A stretch of 64,000 bases of DNA from Thioalkalivibrio sp. K90mix (GTDB lineage Bacteria; Pseudomonadota; Gammaproteobacteria; Ectothiorhodospirales; Ectothiorhodospiraceae). Positions 9,821-17,609 of this stretch are shown piece after piece (within the stretch, counting starts at the first letter, position 1; each line of letters opens with the position of its first letter). Location of the stretch: NCBI RefSeq assembly GCF_000025545.1, contig NC_013889.1:1853501-1917500 (forward strand), given 5' to 3'. The notes under the pieces are model-generated. The model saw only the letters and a list, made by a program, of their open reading frames with translations, was not told the origin of the DNA and made no database searches. The translations under genes were made by a program, and so were the position numbers.

Positions 9821-9835
9821 AGAAAGGAGATGAAT

Positions 9836-10342
9836 ATGTCGCGTTCGATCAAACGCCTGGCCGCCGGCACCGCCGCCGCGGCCTGTCTGGGACTGGCCGG
9901 TGCGGCCCAGGCCGACGTGTTCAACCAGCGCATGATGAGCATGGAGCTGGCCAACGACATCGCCGAGGCCGCGGTGCTCGCCTGCCGCGAGAAGGGACAT
10001 CAGACCAGCGCCGTGGTCGTCGACCGCGCCGGCAACGACCGCGCCGTGCTGCGCGACAACCTGGCCGCCGTGCAGACCATCCAGATCGCCGGCGACAAGG
10101 CCCGAGCCACGGTCATGTCCGGCACCAGCTCCGGCAACTTCCGTGATAACCGCGAAGACATCCGCATGGAGATGAACCACGTGGACGGCATCATCATGCT
10201 GGAAGGCGGGCTGCCGATCGAGGTGGCCGGCAGCATGATCGGCGCGGTGGGTGTATCCGGTGCCCCCGGTGGTGATCTGGATGAAGAATGCGCCCAGGCC
10301 GCGCTAGACTCGGTTCAGGAGCGACTCGACTTCGCGATGTAA
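9836..10342 (+). CDS. exported GlcG/HbpS family protein
   Basis: A 168-residue secreted protein of the GlcG/HbpS (DUF336) family, whose studied members bind haem or corrinoids. The signal peptide is clear (MSRSIKRLAAGTAAAACLGL, then AGAAQA before DVFNQ). The mature part has the family core: LANDIAEAAVLACREKGHQ, SAVVVDRAGNDRAVLRDN, then the GGLPIEV and IGAVGVSGAPGGDLDEECAQAAL block. The ATG at 9836 is chosen over the one at 9830 because AAGGAG ends six bases before it, while 9830 directly abuts it. The rhodanese gene at 10385 follows 42 bases later and may be cotranscribed. Ligand not determined. Confidence 0.85.
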   Translation: MSRSIKRLAAGTAAAACLGLAGAAQADVFNQRMMSMELANDIAEAAVLACREKGHQTSAVVVDRAGNDRAVLRDNLAAVQTIQIAGDKARATVMSGTSSGNFRDNREDIRMEMNHVDGIIMLEGGLPIEVAGSMIGAVGVSGAPGGDLDEECAQAALDSVQERLDFAM

Positions 10343-10384
10343 CGAGTCCCTGGGGACGGCCGCCGACCCACGCCCGGAGCCTTG

Positions 10385-10840
10385 ATGAAAGATCCACTCG
10401 CCAATCAGAAGACGGTTCCCGCGCCCGGCGTACGCCGGATTCGCCCGCAGGAGGCCCATCAGCGGCTGCAGGAGCGCCCGCGCGACCTGCTGATCGACAT
10501 CCGCTCCACGATGGAATTCCTGTTCGTCGGGCACCCGCAGGGCGCCATCCATATCCCGTGGATCGACGAGCCGGACTGGACCGTGAATCCCCACTTCGTG
10601 CCCCAGGTGCGCAAGCTGCTGCTGGGGGGCGCCGAGGATCACAGCGAGGATGCCCCCGCGCTCTACCTGATCTGCCGCAGCGGGAAGCGCACGCTGGCCG
10701 CCGGCCAGGCCCTGGTCGATGCCGGTATCGAGAACGTGTACTCGGTGGATGAAGGCTTTGAAGGGCCGCTGGACGAACACCACCAGCGCTCCACCCGCGG
10801 TGGCTGGCGCTACCACGGGCTGCCCTGGGAACAGTGCTGA
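10385..10840 (+). CDS. rhodanese-domain sulfurtransferase, single domain
   Basis: A 151-residue cytoplasmic protein with one rhodanese domain. The CH2A-like region DLLIDIRSTMEFLFVGHPQGAIHIPW and the active-site loop ICRSGKR, with the persulfide-carrying Cys, are present. The loop CRSGKR resembles the thiosulfate-type loops found in sulfur oxidisers and in PspE/GlpE-like proteins. The start is the ATG at 10385; a TTG one codon earlier is in frame. It probably shares a transcript with the exported GlcG-like protein. The donor and acceptor of the sulfane sulfur cannot be told from sequence. Confidence 0.88.
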   Translation: MKDPLANQKTVPAPGVRRIRPQEAHQRLQERPRDLLIDIRSTMEFLFVGHPQGAIHIPWIDEPDWTVNPHFVPQVRKLLLGGAEDHSEDAPALYLICRSGKRTLAAGQALVDAGIENVYSVDEGFEGPLDEHHQRSTRGGWRYHGLPWEQC

Positions 10841-11418: not shown

Positions 11419-11757
11419 TCACGTCTCGCGCCACACCGAATAGCCACCCCGCAGGACATGGGCGTCAATACCCATGGCGCGCAGGCTCGCAGCCACCAGT
11501 TGCGACCGACCACGGTACCCGCAGTACACGACGACCGGCTGCTCCGGATCCTTCAAGTAGGCCTCTATACTGGCCTCCAGCTTCGGCCGCGGGATATTCA
11601 CCGCCCCATCGATGATGCCTTCTGCCGCTTCCTCCGGCTGGCGAACATCCACCAACAGAAACGACCGCCCCGCCTGGCGCCAGTCAGCAAGATCCGCGGG
11701 TTCCAGATGCGGCAGCTCTTCTTCCAGTTCCGCAATGCGCTTCTCGAACAGGCTCAC
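11419..11757 (-). CDS. rhodanese-domain protein at the end of the FNR-box operon
   Basis: A 112-residue single rhodanese domain: DLADWRQAGRSFLLVDVRQPEE, GAVNIPRPKLEASI and the active-site loop VVYCGYRGRSQLVA with its Cys. The GTG at 11757 (VSLFEKRIAELEEEL) is preferred because GGAG sits eight bases upstream; another GTG at 11781 is possible. It lies 62 bases downstream of the thioredoxin-membrane fusion on the same strand and is plausibly the last gene of that operon, giving the cluster a persulfide carrier beside its dithiol protein and lipoyl protein. Confidence 0.85.
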   Translation of the reverse strand: MSLFEKRIAELEEELPHLEPADLADWRQAGRSFLLVDVRQPEEAAEGIIDGAVNIPRPKLEASIEAYLKDPEQPVVVYCGYRGRSQLVAASLRAMGIDAHVLRGGYSVWRET

Positions 11758-11819
11758 AGTCAGTGGCTCCGTTGGGTACACAGGGTCACCATTCTATCGT
11801 CTCGACAGAGGCTGGGTGT

Positions 11820-12488
11820 TCACAGAGACGGGCGCAGCAAGAGCGGGGCGATGCGCAGCGTAAACAGCAAAAGGCCGACGAATGCGGCCACCGCACCGAC
11901 CGCCGTCAACAGGGGCACACCCAGGAGCCAGCCCAGCCCCATCGCCAGCACGGCCAGGTGCACCAGAATCTGCGGCGTCCAGGCCCACAGCCAGCCGCCC
12001 GCGATCGGGTGCCCGGTAAAGCGCGGCAGCATGTGCTCGCCCAGGCCCATGATCAGCAGCAGCAAAAACCCGAGGGTAAAACCGTGCAGCGCGGCGGGGC
12101 GCGCGGCGCCATCCAGAAAGAAGCCACCCAGCGGCAAGGCCGCACCCGCGATCAGCAACCAGATCATCGCGCCCAGCACGGAGGCACGGCTGGAGGCCGA
12201 AAGCCCCAGCCCGACATGACGCGCAGCCTTATGCGTGCGCTCCGGCGCATCGGCGACCAGCGCGGTCGCGGCCGTGCGATCCAGCAGCCCAATGTGCTTG
12301 AGCTCGCCGTCCACCACCACGGCCGGGATGGAACGTATGCGCAACCGGGTCGCCAGTTGACGCCCCTCAGGCTGCCCCATGTCGACCACCGCGAAATCGA
12401 TCTGTTTCTTCTGGGCCACCTCGCGCCAGATGCGCTCGGCATCATGGCAGGAGGCACACCATTCGGACACCAGCAGTTCCACCTTCAT
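11820..12488 (-). CDS. thioredoxin-fold domain fused to a multi-pass His-rich membrane module
   Basis: A 222-residue protein. Residues 1-80 form a glutaredoxin/thioredoxin-like domain with a CASC dithiol near residue 11 and the cis-Pro motif RSIPAVVV. The remainder has about five membrane segments and contains HG-x3-GF-x4-I-x-G-x-G-x-H-x-LPRF-x-G, which reappears in the 132-residue protein at 12961 in the same operon. The motif recalls haem-binding helices of CcoN/NorB- and NnrS-type proteins, so the two His are candidate haem or copper ligands. The ATG at 12488 is used; longer frames run through the H-protein gene. It sits 20 bases after that gene. Role inferred: membrane redox relay. Confidence 0.82.
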   Translation of the reverse strand: MKVELLVSEWCASCHDAERIWREVAQKKQIDFAVVDMGQPEGRQLATRLRIRSIPAVVVDGELKHIGLLDRTAATALVADAPERTHKAARHVGLGLSASSRASVLGAMIWLLIAGAALPLGGFFLDGAARPAALHGFTLGFLLLLIMGLGEHMLPRFTGHPIAGGWLWAWTPQILVHLAVLAMGLGWLLGVPLLTAVGAVAAFVGLLLFTLRIAPLLLRPSL

Positions 12489-12508
12489 GAATCGGTTGCC
12501 TCCCAGCC

Positions 12509-12961
12509 TCAGTCGGCACAGCGCATGCAGTGGATGTCGTAGCGGTCGATCCACTGTTTGAGCCCGTCGACGGCTTCGGGCCCTGTGTGCAGCCGTTCCA
12601 GCGCCTTTTGCGGGTCGTCCGGGCGCATCACCACCACCCAGGCATCGGTATAGGGAGCGACATTCACCAGCCCCGGGTCGGCCTCCACGGCCGGGTTGAT
12701 GCGCTCGATGGTGCCGTCGAAGGGCGTGGGGATCCCCCCCGCCCACTTGCCGGACTCCAGCCGCGCGACCGGCTTGCCCGCAGCCCGGTGCGAACCCGGC
12801 TTGCGAAAACGGAAGTACTGCACGCGCCCCGCCATCGTCTGGGCGGGATCGGTAATGCCCAGGGTAAAGGTCCCATCATCCTCCGGACGGACCCAGACAT
12901 AGTCGAGGTCATAGAACAGGTCGTCCGGCAGCTCACAGCCGTTGTATTCGGTATGGCTCAT
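12509..12961 (-). CDS. glycine-cleavage H-like lipoyl carrier protein
   Basis: A 150-residue GcvH-fold protein. The family marks are a LGITDPAQTMAGRV strand, ARLESGKWAGGIPTPFDG with the lipoyl-acceptor Lys at about residue 72, NPAVEADPGLVN and PYTDAWVVVM. The tail DIHCMRCAD adds a C-x2-C pair not normal for GcvH. No gcvT, gcvP, lipoate ligase or sHdr gene is nearby, so a glycine-cleavage role is unlikely; lipoate-binding H-like proteins with sulfur-transfer roles are known in sulfur oxidisers (LbpA of the sHdr system). The ATG at 12961 overlaps the preceding stop as TGATG; a GTG one codon upstream is also possible. Confidence 0.82.
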   Translation of the reverse strand: MSHTEYNGCELPDDLFYDLDYVWVRPEDDGTFTLGITDPAQTMAGRVQYFRFRKPGSHRAAGKPVARLESGKWAGGIPTPFDGTIERINPAVEADPGLVNVAPYTDAWVVVMRPDDPQKALERLHTGPEAVDGLKQWIDRYDIHCMRCAD

Positions 12962-13359
12962 CACGCCCCCTTCGGACCATAGTGGCGCACCGTGAGTGCG
13001 ATATTCAGCGCAAACAGGATCATCGCCCCCCAGGCCATCGCCCCGCCGACCGCAACCGTCGGGTTATGGAACATCATCCAGCCGGCGATCATCACCCAGA
13101 GGCCGACATTGGCCAGCACGAACTGGACATGCGCCAGCCGTTCCGAGAACAGCGAGCGCCCGGAAAAACGCGGCAGTACGTGAAGCCCCACGCCGTAAAT
13201 CATCATGATCACGAATCCCAGCAGCATCAGATGACCATGGATACGCGGCACGTTGCCGGGGATCAGCCCCGGATGGGCCAGCCAGAGGACGCCGATCAGT
13301 CCACCCAGCAGCGCATAAACCAGTGCGGCCAGGATGAACATCCGGTTGCGTGGATGCAT
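12961..13359 (-). CDS. small four-helix membrane protein with CcoN/NnrS-like His motif
   Basis: A 132-residue inner-membrane protein, first gene of the leftward operon under the FNR-type box. About four membrane helices are visible. The sequence IHGHLMLLGFVIMMIYG followed by VGLHVLPRFSG looks like the haem-ligand helix region of haem-copper oxidase subunit I (CcoN/NorB), but the protein is only a quarter of that length and lacks the binuclear-centre histidines, so it is not an oxidase. The GF...LPRF block matches the C-terminal half of the thioredoxin fusion at 11820. The stop overlaps the lipoyl-protein start. Possible haem b or NO-related membrane protein; function unproven. Confidence 0.8.
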   Translation of the reverse strand: MHPRNRMFILAALVYALLGGLIGVLWLAHPGLIPGNVPRIHGHLMLLGFVIMMIYGVGLHVLPRFSGRSLFSERLAHVQFVLANVGLWVMIAGWMMFHNPTVAVGGAMAWGAMILFALNIALTVRHYGPKGA

Positions 13360-13416
13360 GTCGCGTTCGCTCCCTTTGCTTGTTTGTTACGGCTTTGTTT
13401 GTTCTTCAGCGAGGCT

Positions 13417-13422
13417 AGACTA
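13417..13422 (-). promoter_or_regulatory. possible -10 element for the leftward operon
   Basis: TAGTCT on the minus strand is centred about 33 bases from the centre of the FNR-type box, close to the spacing expected for a class II FNR promoter with the box near -41.5. It is a weak match to TATAAT. Confidence 0.35.
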
Positions 13423-13445
13423 CGATAAGATGCATAACGAATGCA

Positions 13446-13459
13446 TTGATCGAGATCAA
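13446..13459. promoter_or_regulatory. FNR/ANR/DNR-type operator TTGAT-N4-ATCAA
   Basis: TTGATCGAGATCAA is a perfect match to the palindromic CRP-FNR family consensus. It sits midway between the divergent starts at 13359 and 13540 (about 90 bases to each). Anr/FNR (oxygen) and Dnr/NnrR (nitric oxide) regulators use the same site, so the sequence alone cannot tell which acts. Next to it, ATGCAT is repeated at 13430-13435 and 13441-13446. Confidence 0.8.
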
Positions 13460-13539
13460 CACGGACCCGGGAGACTTAAGGGACAGTAGCGCCTCCGTTA
13501 TTCGTACACACGCCGTCGCCCCGCGATCCGAGCCTATTG

Positions 13540-14097
13540 ATGAAACTGCAACTCCACGAACCCGCCCCCGGCTTTCACCACCCGATCGAACTCCTGCGGG
13601 CCTGTCATCGGCGGATCACGAACTGCCTCGACGCGCTGGAGCGACTGTCGGGACACCTGGAGCAGCACGGGGCCGACGCAGAGGCCCAGTCCGCGGCTCG
13701 CCGTGTGCTGGCCTATTTCGAGCAGGCCGCCCCGCAACATCACGCCGACGAGGACCAGGATCTGTTCCCGATCCTGCATGCATACCGCGACCATCCCGAG
13801 GCCCATCCACAACTGGGTGAGTGGATGGATCGCCTGAGCGCGGAGCACCCTCGGCTTGAGGCCGGCTGGGACGCCCTGGAGCCTGCCCTGCAAAACATTG
13901 CGGCGGGGCACGCGGATCCGCTGGAAGGCGCGACTGACTGGATCCAGTGCTACCGGACCCACCTCGAGCTGGAGGAACAAGCCGTACTGCCACTGGCTGA
14001 CCACCTGCTCAGCGCCGAGGAGCGCGCCCTCATCGGACGTTCCATGGCGCGCCGGCGCGGCATCCCGGACGCGTACGCGAAGCCCGCCGATGAGTGA
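13540..14097 (+). CDS. hemerythrin HHE-domain protein
   Basis: A 185-residue soluble four-helix protein of the hemerythrin-like family, which carries a non-haem di-iron centre and binds O2 or NO, or repairs nitrosylated iron centres (YtfE/DnrN-like). Likely ligands are His in LLRACHRRITNCL, QHHADEDQDLFP, SAEHPRLE and YRTHLELEEQAVLP. The start is the ATG at 13540, where the longer TTG start is one codon away. The stop overlaps the next gene by 8 bases, so the two hemerythrins are coupled. It is the first gene rightward from the FNR-type box. Confidence 0.88.
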   Translation: MKLQLHEPAPGFHHPIELLRACHRRITNCLDALERLSGHLEQHGADAEAQSAARRVLAYFEQAAPQHHADEDQDLFPILHAYRDHPEAHPQLGEWMDRLSAEHPRLEAGWDALEPALQNIAAGHADPLEGATDWIQCYRTHLELEEQAVLPLADHLLSAEERALIGRSMARRRGIPDAYAKPADE

Positions 14098-14806
14098 CTT
14101 TCTGCTGGACCTGCGGGGGCTGGGCGACCACGCACACACCCGCGCCTACTACACGCTGCGCGAACTCCAGCCGGGTCAGGTCTTCGACGTCTGGCTGGAT
14201 CAGGAGCCGCAGCTGCTGATGGATGCCGTCAGCCTGCAGCTGCGCCACGCCATCCACTGGCAGGTGCAGGAGAACGGCCCACCGCTTTGGAAACTGCGCG
14301 TCCAGCGCCGCGAGGACGTCGCGCCCGTGGACCTCGTCGATCTCCTGCAGCGCGACCACCTGCGCATCGACCGCCTGTTCGCCAGCGCCCTGCACAAGGT
14401 CAATGCCGGCGATCTCGAGGGCGCAGCACCCGACTTCCAGGCCTACGTGGAAGGCCTGCGCCGACACGTGCATGTGGAAAACGAACTGATCGTCCCGACG
14501 CTTGAGGTTGCGCGCGGGGCCGGCAGCCAGGACCCGGTCACGATCATGCTGCGCGAGCATGACGAGATCCTGGAACAAACCGCACTGCTGGAACACGAGT
14601 TTCAGGAAGGTGTCGAGGAGGCCTGGATGGTGGCCCCCTTCTTCGCCCTGATCTCCGGGGCCCTCGCCAAGCACGAAAGTCGCGAGGAGCAAAACGTGTT
14701 CCCGAACTGGGGACGCCGCCTGCGCCACGAGCCCGACCTGGCGGCCGAACTCCTGGAGAAGGCCCGTCAGCAGCTAGGGGCCGGCGCCACCACGCCCGGA
14801 CAATAG
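14090..14806 (+). CDS. DUF2249 domain fused to a hemerythrin domain
   Basis: A 238-residue protein. Residues 1-75 are a DUF2249 (TusA-like) domain: LDLRGLGDHAHTRAYYTLRELQPGQVFDVW. The expected Cys-Pro of TusA is absent (the position reads LGDHAH), so a sulfur-carrier role is doubtful. Residues 85-225 are a hemerythrin domain with DLLQRDHLRIDRLF, LRRHVHVENELIVP, LREHDEI and KHESREEQNVFP giving the His/Glu ligands. The ATG overlaps the end of the first hemerythrin gene. DUF2249-hemerythrin proteins are commonly part of NO-detoxification or denitrification regulons, in line with the FNR-type box upstream. Confidence 0.88.
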   Translation: MSDFLLDLRGLGDHAHTRAYYTLRELQPGQVFDVWLDQEPQLLMDAVSLQLRHAIHWQVQENGPPLWKLRVQRREDVAPVDLVDLLQRDHLRIDRLFASALHKVNAGDLEGAAPDFQAYVEGLRRHVHVENELIVPTLEVARGAGSQDPVTIMLREHDEILEQTALLEHEFQEGVEEAWMVAPFFALISGALAKHESREEQNVFPNWGRRLRHEPDLAAELLEKARQQLGAGATTPGQ

Positions 14807-14918
14807 GGGTCGGCAATACGGAATGATTGTGTCACGATGGCCCATCGCCACGGCCTGACACGACGTGACACCACTCCACCTCGATATCGGCTTTTCCCGC
14901 CCTGTTCACTGGCTTCGT

Positions 14919-17609
14919 ATGCGGTTTGCGGCATGGCCAGCCGGCCTGTCGGCCATAGGCGTCCTGCTCCTTTGCTGCACCGGCGTGCAGGCCGACGAAC
15001 CGCCACCTCCCCTGATCGTCTCCCAGGATCACGCCTGGCCCCCCTTTGCCTTCGAAGATAACGGGGGCGAGCCTCGCGGCTTGCTGGTAGACCTGTGGCA
15101 GGAGATCGCGAACGAACTCGACCGTCCAGTGGAATTCCGACTGGTCGACTGGCCGCGCACCCTGGATCTCGTCCGCGGTGGCGAGGCTGATGTGCACGGC
15201 GGGCTGATCCAGTCTCCCGAGCGCGAACAAACCCTGGCCTTCAGCGAAGTACTGCTCCCGCTGCGGACCTTCGCGTTCGTGCGCACCGGCGCGCCCGTGG
15301 CCCGACTGGACGAACTCGCGCACAAACCGGCTGGCGTGGTGGCGGGCAGCTTCGAACTCGAGTTCATGCGGCGCGAACGACCTGAACACCCGCTGCAGGT
15401 CTTCGACAACAACGAGCAGATGGTGCGCGCCGCGCTGGAAGGCACGATCGATGTCTTCGTGGGCGACTACCCGGTCGCCATGTACCTGCTGGACCGTCAT
15501 GGCGAGCCGGGCATGTTTCACCCCCTGGAGCTGCTCTACGAGCAGCCCCTGCGCGCAGCGGTAACGCACGCTAACGAGGAATTGCTGGACGAAATCAACA
15601 CGGCCATCGCCCAGCTGGATGACGAACTGCTGCGCCAGATCACGCAGCGCTGGATCCACTCCGATACGGTCGAGGTGTTCCCCGCCTGGCTGCTCCCAAC
15701 CGTCATTGGCCTGAGCCTGCTGGCGGTATTGCTGTATGCCGCATTGCTGCTTCGCCAGCGGCGTGCGCTCGAGACCCGCGTTCGCGAGCGCACCGCCGAA
15801 CTCGAGGACGAGCGCGAGCTGTTCCGCACCCTGACCGAACACGCTGCGGCCGGCGTATTCATCCTCCAGAATGACCATTTCCAGACCGTGAATCCGGCCC
15901 TTTCCCGCATCCTCCAGCGCCCCGAACACTGGCTGCTGAACCAGCCCTTCTACGAGATCATCCACCCGGAACAGCGCGAGGCCGTGACTCAGCGGGCTCG
16001 CGACCGGATCGCGGGCAAGAAGGTGCCGGACCACTACGAGATGAAGGTCATCACCGGTAACGGCGAGACGCGCTGGGTCGAGCTGACCGCCGGCCGCGTG
16101 GAGCTGCAAAGCGGCGCGGCCAGCATTGGCACGATATACGACATCACCGAGCGGCACCTGCTGGAGGAACAGTTGCGCGCCAGCGAGGCCCAGTACCGCC
16201 AGCTGGTCGAGAACATCGGGGACATCATCTACACCCTCACGCCGGACGGCGTCATCACCTATGTCTCCCCGCAATGGACACGAGTGCTGGGTTACACCGC
16301 CGAAGAGGCGACCGGAACCCCCATCGCCGACTACGTCCATCGGGAGGACCGCGGGGAATGCGGCCGCTTCCTCCAACGCACCCTCCGTTCGGAGCAGAAC
16401 GACCAGGAAATCGAGTACCGCGTCCGGCATCAGAGTGGGGAATGGCGCTGGCACGTCTCCAGCGGCGCCCCGATCCGCAGCGCGACGGGCGAGATCACAG
16501 GCTATGTGGGCGTTGCTCGAGACATCACCGATCGCCGCCGCATGCACGACGAGCTTCAGTATCAGGCACGTTTCAACGCCATGCTGGCGCGCCTGTCCTC
16601 GGACTTCGTGACCGCCAGCGCCGACTTGATGGACGAGCGACTGGATGCTGCCCTGGCCGACATCGGGCGCTTTTTCGAGAGCGATCGCTGCTATCTGTTC
16701 GAGTTATCACCTGATGGCACACACATGGACAACACCCATGAATGGTGTGCCCCCGGCGTATTCTCCGTAATGGACCAACTGCGGGATGTGGACATCAAAA
16801 AGCTACCCTGGTGGCGCACCCGCATGCTGGAGATGATCGAGCAGCGCATACCGGTGGTGATTCCCGTGGTGGACGAGCTCCCGGAGGAGGCGGCCACCGA
16901 GCGCGAGTTGTTCCGGCGACAAGGCGTCAAGACCCTGATCTGCGTACCCATCCTGGCCGGACAGCAGGTCACCGGCTTCGTCGGCATGGACATGCTGCGC
17001 CCGCGCACCTGGCGCAAGGATCAGGATGAATTGCTGCTGGTGCTCGGCAACCTGATCTCGGAGGCACTGCAGCGCAACCACCTGGAGATCCAGCTACGCG
17101 ATCTTGGGATCACCGACCCGTTGACCGGCCTGTACAACCGCCGCTACCTGATGGAGCGCCTGCGCGAACAGATCGAGGCCTGGCGCCGCCACGGCGAAGA
17201 TTTTGCCGTGGCGATCCTGGATCTGGACCACTTCAAGACCCTCAATGACACCCACGGACACCTGGCCGGCGACGAGGTTCTGCGCAACTTCGGCGATCTG
17301 TTGCGGCGCCAGCATCGGGCCTTCGACATTGTGGCTCGCTTTGGCGGCGAGGAATTCATCGTGGTCCTCACCCGTGTCGATCACGAGGCCGCCACCACCG
17401 CCATCGAACGCCTGCTGGAGGCCACCCGCGAACTCGACACACGCTTCGAGGACGAATCGCTGGCCTTCACGGTCAGCGCCGGACTGGCCTGGTCCGACGA
17501 GTGCGACCCCGGGCACCTCACGCCCGAAACCCTGATCAATCGGGCCGACGATCGTCTCTATCGCGCGAAGGCTCAGGGCCGCGACCGGCTTGTGGCCGGA
17601 GACACGTAA
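14919..17609 (+). CDS. transmembrane sensor diguanylate cyclase (SBP_bac_3-TM-PAS-PAS-GAF-GGDEF)
   Basis: An 896-residue membrane sensor that would make c-di-GMP. After a signal peptide (MRFAAWPAGLSAIGVLLLCC) there is a periplasmic solute-binding domain (PPPLIVSQDHAWPPFAF to about residue 265), one TM helix near 275-300, a coiled coil, PAS (about 320-420), PAS (about 425-550), GAF (about 560-720) and GGDEF. The active site is GGEEF at about 808-812, and the product-binding I-site RxxD (RAFD) lies five residues before it, so both synthesis and feedback inhibition are expected. A GTG start at 14865 is possible; 14919 gives the cleaner signal peptide. The ligand is unknown. Confidence 0.92.
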   Translation: MRFAAWPAGLSAIGVLLLCCTGVQADEPPPPLIVSQDHAWPPFAFEDNGGEPRGLLVDLWQEIANELDRPVEFRLVDWPRTLDLVRGGEADVHGGLIQSPEREQTLAFSEVLLPLRTFAFVRTGAPVARLDELAHKPAGVVAGSFELEFMRRERPEHPLQVFDNNEQMVRAALEGTIDVFVGDYPVAMYLLDRHGEPGMFHPLELLYEQPLRAAVTHANEELLDEINTAIAQLDDELLRQITQRWIHSDTVEVFPAWLLPTVIGLSLLAVLLYAALLLRQRRALETRVRERTAELEDERELFRTLTEHAAAGVFILQNDHFQTVNPALSRILQRPEHWLLNQPFYEIIHPEQREAVTQRARDRIAGKKVPDHYEMKVITGNGETRWVELTAGRVELQSGAASIGTIYDITERHLLEEQLRASEAQYRQLVENIGDIIYTLTPDGVITYVSPQWTRVLGYTAEEATGTPIADYVHREDRGECGRFLQRTLRSEQNDQEIEYRVRHQSGEWRWHVSSGAPIRSATGEITGYVGVARDITDRRRMHDELQYQARFNAMLARLSSDFVTASADLMDERLDAALADIGRFFESDRCYLFELSPDGTHMDNTHEWCAPGVFSVMDQLRDVDIKKLPWWRTRMLEMIEQRIPVVIPVVDELPEEAATERELFRRQGVKTLICVPILAGQQVTGFVGMDMLRPRTWRKDQDELLLVLGNLISEALQRNHLEIQLRDLGITDPLTGLYNRRYLMERLREQIEAWRRHGEDFAVAILDLDHFKTLNDTHGHLAGDEVLRNFGDLLRRQHRAFDIVARFGGEEFIVVLTRVDHEAATTAIERLLEATRELDTRFEDESLAFTVSAGLAWSDECDPGHLTPETLINRADDRLYRAKAQGRDRLVAGDT

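Follow-up and report, generated by a model that had tools for sequence, protein, structure and literature searches.

Sequence comparison identified a conserved unit of three genes in the 64-kb stretch of DNA analysed here (hereafter the window) from Thioalkalivibrio sp. K90mix, a sulfur oxidiser of soda lakes, which comprises bases 1853501–1917500 of contig 1 of a genome of 2,985,056 bases in two contigs. The genes encode a small membrane protein, a lipoyl carrier protein and a thioredoxin fused to a second membrane domain, and they lie beside an FNR/DNR-type box that is conserved at orthologous loci. By sequence, the carrier falls within the LbpA class of the sHdr sulfur oxidation system, the unit co-occurs with sHdr genes, and the membrane parts are predicted to have an oxidase-arc fold with its HxH pair. 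We give about an even chance to the reading that the unit is an FNR/DNR-controlled accessory branch of sHdr-LbpA cytoplasmic sulfur oxidation, in which the electrons of a dihydrolipoyl group would be drained via thioredoxin into the membrane. According to its genome paper, K90mix has a chromosome of 2.74 Mb and a plasmid of 240 kb, and is recorded as an aerobic organism living on reduced sulfur compounds (PMC3368412). The features of the locus are as follows (window positions).

13446–13459, no strand: palindromic FNR/DNR-type box TTGATCGAGATCAA, separating two divergent transcription units
12961–13359, minus strand: core gene 1, small four-helix membrane protein of 132 amino acids, oxidase-like arc with invariant H41, H43 and H60
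12509–12961, minus strand: core gene 2, LbpA3, lipoyl carrier of the sHdr LbpA kind, with Lys72, Cys9 and a C-terminal C-M-R-C (numbered from ATG)
11820–12488, minus strand: core gene 3, thioredoxin domain (W-C11-A-S-C14) with a second oxidase-like four-helix arc, invariant H135 and H152
11419–11781, minus strand: single-domain rhodanese, seen as an operon member only in Thioalkalivibrio
13540–14097, plus strand: hemerythrin 1, 185 amino acids, transcribed away from the core on the other side of the box, a frequent but optional partner
14090–14806, plus strand: hemerythrin 2, DUF2249 plus hemerythrin, 238 amino acids, overlapping hemerythrin 1 by 8 bases

The gene types named in a preliminary description of this DNA were all found by Pfam or by motifs: Rhodanese (4e-18), Thioredoxin_3 in the fusion (2e-9), GCV_H in the lipoyl protein (1e-29), Hemerythrin in hemerythrin 1 (9e-16), and Hemerythrin (2e-13) with DUF2249 (1e-8) in hemerythrin 2. 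The perfect TTGAT-N4-ATCAA box that it placed between the divergent units is present, 86 bp from the leftward ATG (13359) and 80 bp from the rightward ATG (13540). Both of the overlaps that it listed were also found, a TGATG coupling the small membrane gene (stop 12963–12961) to the lipoyl protein gene (ATG 12961) and the 8 bases shared by the hemerythrin genes (start 14090, end 14097). Its claim that the membrane half of the fusion is akin to the small membrane protein agrees with an identity of 32% over query residues 95–214 (E 2e-8), and its numbering of the lipoyl lysine as 72 is right from ATG (residue 73 from GTG).

Distribution of the three-gene unit

A scan of 84,980 species using two short motifs of the lipoyl protein gave 52 loci in 50 genomes, whose hosts were Thioalkalivibrio, metagenome-assembled genomes (MAGs) labelled beta-, gamma- or proteobacterial, and one MAG labelled Terriglobia. 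Since this set rests on two exact peptide patterns, more divergent relatives escaped it; such relatives appeared in the search for the type II layout described below. The fusion gene followed the lipoyl protein gene on the same strand in 52/52 loci, only the motifs of the latter having been searched for, and the small membrane gene preceded it on the same strand in 49/52. In the loci measured, the median gap was 2 bp between the small membrane gene and the lipoyl protein gene and 12.5 bp between the latter and the fusion gene. Among 47 genomes of the order to which K90mix belongs, close relatives of the small membrane protein and of the fusion were encoded near each other in one and the same set of 15 genomes. 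These were also exactly the genomes in which a profile of the lipoyl protein reached 260–282 bits, against 122–141 bits for the other listed lipoyl carriers. LbpA3 was the most conserved member of the set in the order, with 91–99% identity outside the diverged genome G012; in the same comparison, also outside G012, the fusion showed 71–95%.

Of the 14 core-bearing order loci that were fetched, 11 gave a rhodanese match, all of these being Thioalkalivibrio and one a contig-edge piece; at E ≤ 1e-4, the members of the 52-locus set without a Thioalkalivibrio label gave none. Hemerythrins occurred within 6 kb of the core in 13/14 order loci and 11/44 other loci, only 25 of the latter 44 extending 5.5 kb on both sides. 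In the neighbour counts within 6 kb, L168, L169 and L172 were dropped as repeats, and L119 was dropped in another neighbour comparison. The preliminary description had taken all six genes as one unit. Three of them are kept together, their order recurring across genomes in 49/52 loci rather than being scattered; the rhodanese, matched only in Thioalkalivibrio, and the hemerythrins, which are optional, were rejected as core members. Therefore, on the evidence of recurrence, the conserved unit consists of three genes: the small membrane protein, LbpA3 and the thioredoxin-membrane fusion. A phylum-wide search of 398 genomes (E ≤ 1e-25) matched only the genome's own locus and one thioredoxin domain, and a spread over the whole phylum was rejected on this result.

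Several loci deserve separate mention. In genome G044 (L080:8837–9033), remnants of the small membrane gene and LbpA3 are joined beside an intact hemerythrin pair, and we label this locus a decayed or deleted core. In G023 (L073:10846–11829), the match to the second hemerythrin is split into two parts, as though the gene were disrupted or carried an insertion. The core of the MAG labelled Terriglobia (L104) is 49–71% identical to that of the window, and its genome has no sHdrB2 match; the contig is possibly proteobacterial and misbinned. A SirB-family membrane protein (L101:5592–5978 and relatives, cluster c10) was found within 6 kb of the core in 10/44 non-order loci, accompanied in several of them by a hemerythrin or a DNR-like regulator. 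In the window itself, an HbpS-like protein (PF03928) at 9830–10342 is followed by another single-domain rhodanese at 10382–10840, and both genes were matched in 4 of 15 order loci fetched from other genomes. Directly 3′ of the hemerythrins, a 914-amino-acid SBP-PAS-GAF-GGDEF protein (14865–17609) is encoded; its gene is kept downstream of the hemerythrins in 6/14 fetched order loci with the core.

Phylogenetic position of the lipoyl protein

In LbpA proteins, a lipoyl lysine is combined with one N-terminal and one C-terminal cysteine, which are lacking in GcvH according to Cao et al. (PMC6067878). K73, C10, C146 and C149 (numbered from GTG) were present in 44/44 rows of alignment A6, the tail reading CMRC; one type II protein has CLRC instead. 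Alignments A4, A5 and A6 each comprise the window protein together with 38 of 42, 39 of 40 and 43 of 45 listed references, respectively; nine almost identical order loci and short fragments had been excluded before the references were listed. The window protein thus has the lipoyl-accepting lysine and the N- and C-terminal cysteines, and its phylogenetic placement is with LbpA rather than GcvH. The tree of 84 proteins, built on selected rows, separated GcvH from all LbpA (100/99) and joined LbpA3 and LbpA1 in one group (100/97). Compared with its paralogues in K90mix, LbpA3 is 44% identical to LbpA1, the nearest, and 38% to LbpA2.

The protein scored above the Pfam GCV_H cut-off and below both NCBIfam GcvH cut-offs (TIGR00527 and NF002270; 78.6 of 115.85 and 95.3 of 117 bits), for which K90mix's own GcvH gave 172.8 and 189.9. 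This test alone is not clean because the strain's LbpA2 passes one of the models (NF002270, 126.3 of 117); LbpA1 passes neither. The other GcvH of K90mix (L081) is encoded between GcvT and GcvPA, both over their NCBIfam cut-offs, and no gcvP or gcvT partner was found inside the cluster studied, as the preliminary description had stated. In genome G323 (98% complete), LbpA3 is present and no GcvH-type match was found. The lipoyl-carrier comparison of class genomes covered 15 of the 18 with an A4 match and sHdrB2, G019, G274 and G318 being left out.

K90mix has a complete sHdr cluster (L082) with LbpA1, LbpA2, a DsrE-like gene, LipS1, sLpl, LipT and LipS2, gene names that follow the published K90mix cluster (PMC6067878 and PMC10332631). 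HdrB and lipoate-ligase models match proteins of L082. LbpA proteins are lipoylated by sLpl(AB)-LipS1/S2, and a ligase and LipS-like genes are present in the same genome as LbpA3. The LbpA3 gene of K90mix lies neither in nor beside this cluster, being 1.19 Mb away from it. Elsewhere, exceptions beside sulfur genes were L115 (ca. 5 kb from sHdrC2-B2-LbpA2), L131 (LbpA2-like) and G110 (sHdrB1-like, at a contig end). Its position outside the sHdr cluster therefore sets LbpA3 apart from LbpA1 and LbpA2, and by sequence it is a third LbpA class, ending in CxxC, for which we coined the name LbpA3. The sHdr-type assignment made in the preliminary description is borne out by the cysteine and lysine hallmarks, the grouping with LbpA1 and the sHdr genes of the carriers, and the protein is not an ordinary GcvH, lying outside that clade in a genome whose other GcvH sits with GcvT and GcvPA.

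Association with sHdr genes

The search for sHdrB2 covered 40 of the 47 order genomes and 38 other carrier genomes; in the latter set, L110 and L133 each represent another contig of a MAG that the set contains, and L119 is G012. Outside the order, sHdrB2 was found at 64–90% identity, in some cases as pieces, in 31/38 carriers, and within the order in 14/15, the exception being a genome 66% complete. Among 369 class genomes, 22 had sHdrB2 and 11 the full fusion, with an overlap of 10 (Fisher p = 6e-13, a statistic that ignores kinship); the eleventh full-fusion genome is 75% complete, and the 11 fall in seven families. The core of L115 has the same orientation as sHdrC2-sHdrB2-LbpA2 and follows these genes at a distance of ca. 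5 kb.

In three Burkholderiales MAGs (L115, L117 and L131), DUF1641, SQR-like, TusA and DsrE-like genes were seen beside the core. An LbpA2-like gene occurs in the L115 and L131 loci, and sHdrC2-sHdrB2 in L115.

Putative control by FNR or DNR

The box TTGATCGAGATCAA is the only perfect TTGAT-N4-ATCAA and the only TTGAY-N4-RTCAA in the 64 kb; with one mismatch allowed, there are two sites against 0.40 expected in shuffles. A strict TTGAY-N4-RTCAA occurred upstream of the small membrane gene, at most 170 bp away, in 12/14 order loci and 16/38 others (28/52), compared with 18/614 unrelated genes in the same loci and 21/304 of those with mostly intergenic upstream DNA. The motif recognised by DNR resembles the FNR box TTGATnnnnATCAA (PMC1274295). 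A DNR-like Crp/Fnr gene was found within 6 kb of the core in 17/44 non-order loci, and for the one of these regulators that was compared with solved structures, the best match was DNR (2e-45). NnrS and a lone DUF2249 gene each occurred within the same distance in 4/44. The palindromic box is spaced as in a promoter and recurs at orthologous genes, which makes the cluster a candidate member of an FNR/DNR regulon. The low-oxygen or NO-type control envisaged in the preliminary description is supported by the retention of the box and by the nearby DNR-like genes.

K90mix has four regulators over the HTH_Crp_2 cut-off. One has an N-terminal cysteine motif and FNR as its best solved relative (4e-62); of the other three, one is weakly nearest to FixK2/FNR, one has no close relative and one is nearest to Crp/Vfr, and DNR was not among the solved relatives listed for these three. 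No NarG over the cut-off was found in K90mix, and no NO-reductase model was among the matches of its only two full-length COX1-family proteins, CcoN and one unassigned. Because of these two results and its record as an aerobe, low oxygen acting through FNR is favoured over NO as the signal in K90mix, as judged from its gene content; NO may be the signal in hosts where a DNR-type gene lies nearby. Nitrate respiration was rejected as a common theme, NarG being over the cut-off in 3/47 order genomes and 0/15 carriers.

Predicted structure of the membrane proteins

The small membrane protein stayed below the Pfam cut-offs for COX1 (PF00115, E 3e-5, 23.4 bits vs 34.8) and NnrS (PF05940, 15.2 of 28 bits). 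Its predicted structure has four helices (predicted local distance difference test score, pLDDT, 90; predicted template modelling score, pTM, 0.82). The first 20 Foldseek matches were all catalytic subunits I of haem-copper oxidases or NO reductases, at weak E-values (best 0.012, none at 0.001). When a profile of the protein was compared with the PDB, CcoN chains alone were obtained at E ≤ 1, the best whole-chain value being 2.4e-6 and that of the HVH stretch by itself 0.025, with H41 and H43 falling on the HVH of CcoN and H60 on the next histidine; the other CcoN stretches matched were not significant by themselves. In structure alignment, the 132 residues matched CcoN 303–470 with Z 14.3, a root-mean-square deviation of 2.6 and 26% identity, four-helix proteins of the LTC4-synthase type coming next (Z ca. 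10.6); for helical bundles, according to a warning of the tool, Z under about 13 may reflect only a common arrangement.

The first structure search with the membrane half of the fusion was dominated by thioredoxins; in structure alignment, this half matched ba3 oxidase 339–497 with Z 14.0. H41, H43 and H60 are invariant in 40/40 rows of the small protein, and H135 and H152 in 39/39 of the fusion. The HxH motif binds haems in subunit I of haem-copper oxidases, which is built of three four-helix arcs. The small protein has this motif and is not a full many-helix subunit, and in the models the membrane pieces resemble single arcs of four helices from such an oxidase, with the HxH pair retained.

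The thioredoxin domain of the fusion is over the PF13192 cut-off, with C11 and C14 in 39/39 rows and Z up to 12.0 against thioredoxins. Its family also occurs apart from LbpA3, beside other genes in L175 and L180 and with no labelled neighbour in L183, in genomes with no sHdrB2 match. Four more class genomes with weak thioredoxin matches lay outside the locus comparison.

Second (type II) layout

In several class genomes with a thioredoxin-only match, LbpA3 is encoded near a hemerythrin of 143–164 amino acids and a stand-alone thioredoxin of the same family (L174, L176, L178, L179 and L181; Pfam confirms four of these hemerythrins). In G255 and G110, the LbpA3, hemerythrin and thioredoxin parts are in separate places. 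FNR/DNR-type boxes were found at type II genes in 8/9 loci examined, L176 being the exception; LbpA3, thioredoxin and hemerythrin therefore keep the same kind of control site despite the changed order. By sequence, the type II layout is one in which a hemerythrin replaces the arcs and LbpA3, thioredoxin and box stay; it is absent from the preliminary description.

In G255, one contig bears a complete sHdr cluster that includes an sHdrB1 (83%), and another contig bears a second sHdrB1 (80%), which lies inside a hemerythrin-thioredoxin cluster and is preceded by its own box. In G110, one sHdrB1 lies a few kb from the thioredoxin and hemerythrin genes and another follows LbpA3 at a contig end; the latter may be the main copy, because the contig of the main cluster starts inside sHdrB1. 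The extra-cluster copies (G255, L173:3564–4961 and L240:7155–8450; G110, L243:2290–3615 and L213:4701–5843) are near thioredoxin, hemerythrin, DUF2249 or globin genes and FNR/DNR-type boxes.

Proposed function and alternatives

If the unit is an accessory branch of sHdr-LbpA sulfur oxidation, LbpA3 would be produced together with the membrane-anchored thioredoxin at low oxygen, or on NO in hosts with DNR. sHdr would load electrons, or a sulfane, onto the lipoyl arm of LbpA3, and the WCxxC thioredoxin domain, aided by the CxxC of the LbpA3 tail, would re-oxidise the dihydrolipoyl group by dithiol exchange. The electrons would then reach the quinone pool via a haem held between the two four-helix arcs, one from the small protein and one from the fusion. 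Such an exit from LbpA3 through thioredoxin and the arc haem to quinone would be downhill and used when oxygen is scarce, and the hemerythrins may hold or remove oxygen or NO that would attack lipoyl and iron-sulfur groups. In type II loci, which have no arcs, the route would end differently, perhaps at the hemerythrin. We infer lipoylation, haem binding, the direction of electron flow, the quinone acceptor, the part played by the hemerythrins and the sharing of one haem between the arcs. No dihydrolipoyl dehydrogenase gene was seen in bacterial hdr clusters by the authors of PMC6067878, and the K90mix genome paper sends Hdr electrons to quinones (PMC3368412). We advance more tentatively, and well short of an even chance, the fuller idea of a lipoyl-protein:quinone oxidoreductase, in which separate arcs, one of them fused to thioredoxin, would assemble round a haem and accept electrons from a dedicated dihydrolipoyl carrier, low oxygen or NO refitting sHdr with LbpA3 and, in some hosts, with a second sHdrB1.

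Besides the kinship ignored by the co-occurrence statistic, several observations weigh against the accessory-branch reading. The strict box is missing in 22/38 non-order and 2/14 order loci. Support for LbpA3 as a single group is weak (72/91; 68% of bootstrap trees), and the 84-row tree drew a long-branch warning from the program. Seven of the 38 non-order carriers, all MAGs by title, have no sHdrB2 or only a 32% match, one of them (L131) having the LbpA2-like gene ca. 3 kb from the core. sHdr occurs without the full fusion in 12/22 sHdrB2-positive class genomes, and sHdrB2 is found in 21/25 tested order non-carriers, so sHdr does not depend on the unit. Only 3/44 non-order loci have sulfur genes within 6 kb of the core, and G230 has sHdr and a small arc but no LbpA3. 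The HxH ligands of haem-copper oxidases lie near the periplasmic side, far from a cytoplasmic thioredoxin. Finally, type II loci have no arcs, so electrons cannot reach quinone by way of arcs in every host.

The chief alternative is a protective role, in which the thioredoxin and the dithiol of LbpA3 would, during NO or micro-oxic stress, reduce a scavenger of NO or oxygen, with haem in the arcs or di-iron in the hemerythrin, which would shield the iron-sulfur clusters and lipoyl groups of sHdr. The frequency of hemerythrin, DNR-like, NnrS and lone DUF2249 genes near the core agrees with this, as do the globins, DUF2249 and small hemerythrins of type II loci, the resemblance of the arcs to NO reductase as well as to oxidases, and the ability of a hemerythrin to replace the arcs. 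However, with no NarG over the cut-off and no NO-reductase match, little endogenous NO is expected in K90mix; a scavenger has no need of a dedicated lipoyl carrier, and the carriers are tied to sHdr, whereas none of the 15 in the order has NarG. We regard protection as rather unlikely.

Less probable again is that LbpA3 serves sulfur traffic as an alternative sulfane carrier, whose persulfide would be loaded and unloaded by the thioredoxin domain and the tail CxxC, the arcs acting as sensor, anchor or sulfur channel and the rhodanese taking part in Thioalkalivibrio. The rhodanese within the Thioalkalivibrio operon points this way, as do the second sHdrB1 accompanying a type II cluster and the operon of DsrE-like, TusA and SQR-like genes beside the core in the three Burkholderiales MAGs, which in L131 follows the fusion gene at 99 bp and in the same orientation. 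The SQR-like gene of that operon, for which Pfam gives Pyr_redox_2, is presumably an SQR, and a metallo-beta-lactamase-fold gene near LbpA3 in L212, which we take to be a persulfide dioxygenase, would fit as well. On the other hand, no rhodanese match was obtained in loci not labelled Thioalkalivibrio, and the oxidase-arc fold with invariant ligand-type histidines suits electrons better than sulfur.

An ordinary GcvH drafted into a stress operon and serving a distant glycine cleavage system is nearly refuted: the Pfam domain and the closest solved relatives by sequence, which are GcvH structures, speak for it, but it was rejected on the sub-cut-off NCBIfam scores, which are not fully discriminating, the place outside GcvH in the tree, the separate gcvT-gcvH-gcvPA locus and the genome G323.

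Comparison with known systems

In the open-licence literature, with subscription papers, preprints and supplements outside the scope, no paper was found that describes this set of genes or a third LbpA class linked to it. Each part is of a known kind; what appears to be new is the LbpA3 class, the thioredoxin-arc fusion, the free-standing arc and the combination of these behind an FNR/DNR box. The re-oxidation of dihydrolipoyl-LbpA was left open in 2018 by the authors of PMC6067878, who proposed a shared dihydrolipoyl dehydrogenase. A conserved LbpA-type carrier with a membrane thioredoxin in sHdr genomes makes this question testable in K90mix, a strain for which expression of LbpA1, LbpA2 and the lipoylation enzymes is already on record (PMC6067878, PMC10332631). 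The unit would also tie lithotrophic sulfur oxidation to FNR/DNR control, and free-standing oxidase arcs bear on the origin of haem-copper oxidases. If the more tentative idea of a lipoyl-protein:quinone oxidoreductase is true, the unit would be a new respiratory entry point and the isolated arc a living example of the unit triplicated into oxidase subunit I.

Like LbpA1 and LbpA2 of sHdr, LbpA3 has a GcvH-like domain, the lipoyl lysine, an N-terminal GC motif and a C-terminal cysteine, LbpA1 being nearest in the tree; unlike them, the K90mix LbpA3 lies outside the sHdr cluster, has its own FNR-type box and a two-cysteine CMRC tail, and is tied to thioredoxin-membrane genes. With the glycine cleavage H protein it shares the domain and the lipoyl lysine; it differs in having no gcvP/T neighbours, in its extra cysteines, in its scores below the cut-offs and in its place outside the GcvH clade. 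The small protein resembles CcoN, COX1 and NorB (and NnrS) in its four-helix arc and in an HxH on the second helix that aligns with the HVH of CcoN, whereas it is one arc of 132 residues, a whole subunit I having ca. 460–530, and is below the COX1 and NnrS cut-offs. FNR/DNR regulons with hemerythrin and DUF2249 share the TTGAT-N4-ATCAA-like box (PMC1274295) and hemerythrin, NnrS and DNR-like neighbours; the present unit adds a lipoyl carrier, the thioredoxin-arc fusion and, in one genome, an sHdrB1 paralogue. A shared dihydrolipoyl dehydrogenase (E3), as proposed in PMC6067878, would likewise re-oxidise dihydrolipoyl-LbpA, whereas the route suggested here would run through thioredoxin and the membrane, with quinone instead of NAD+ as the putative acceptor.

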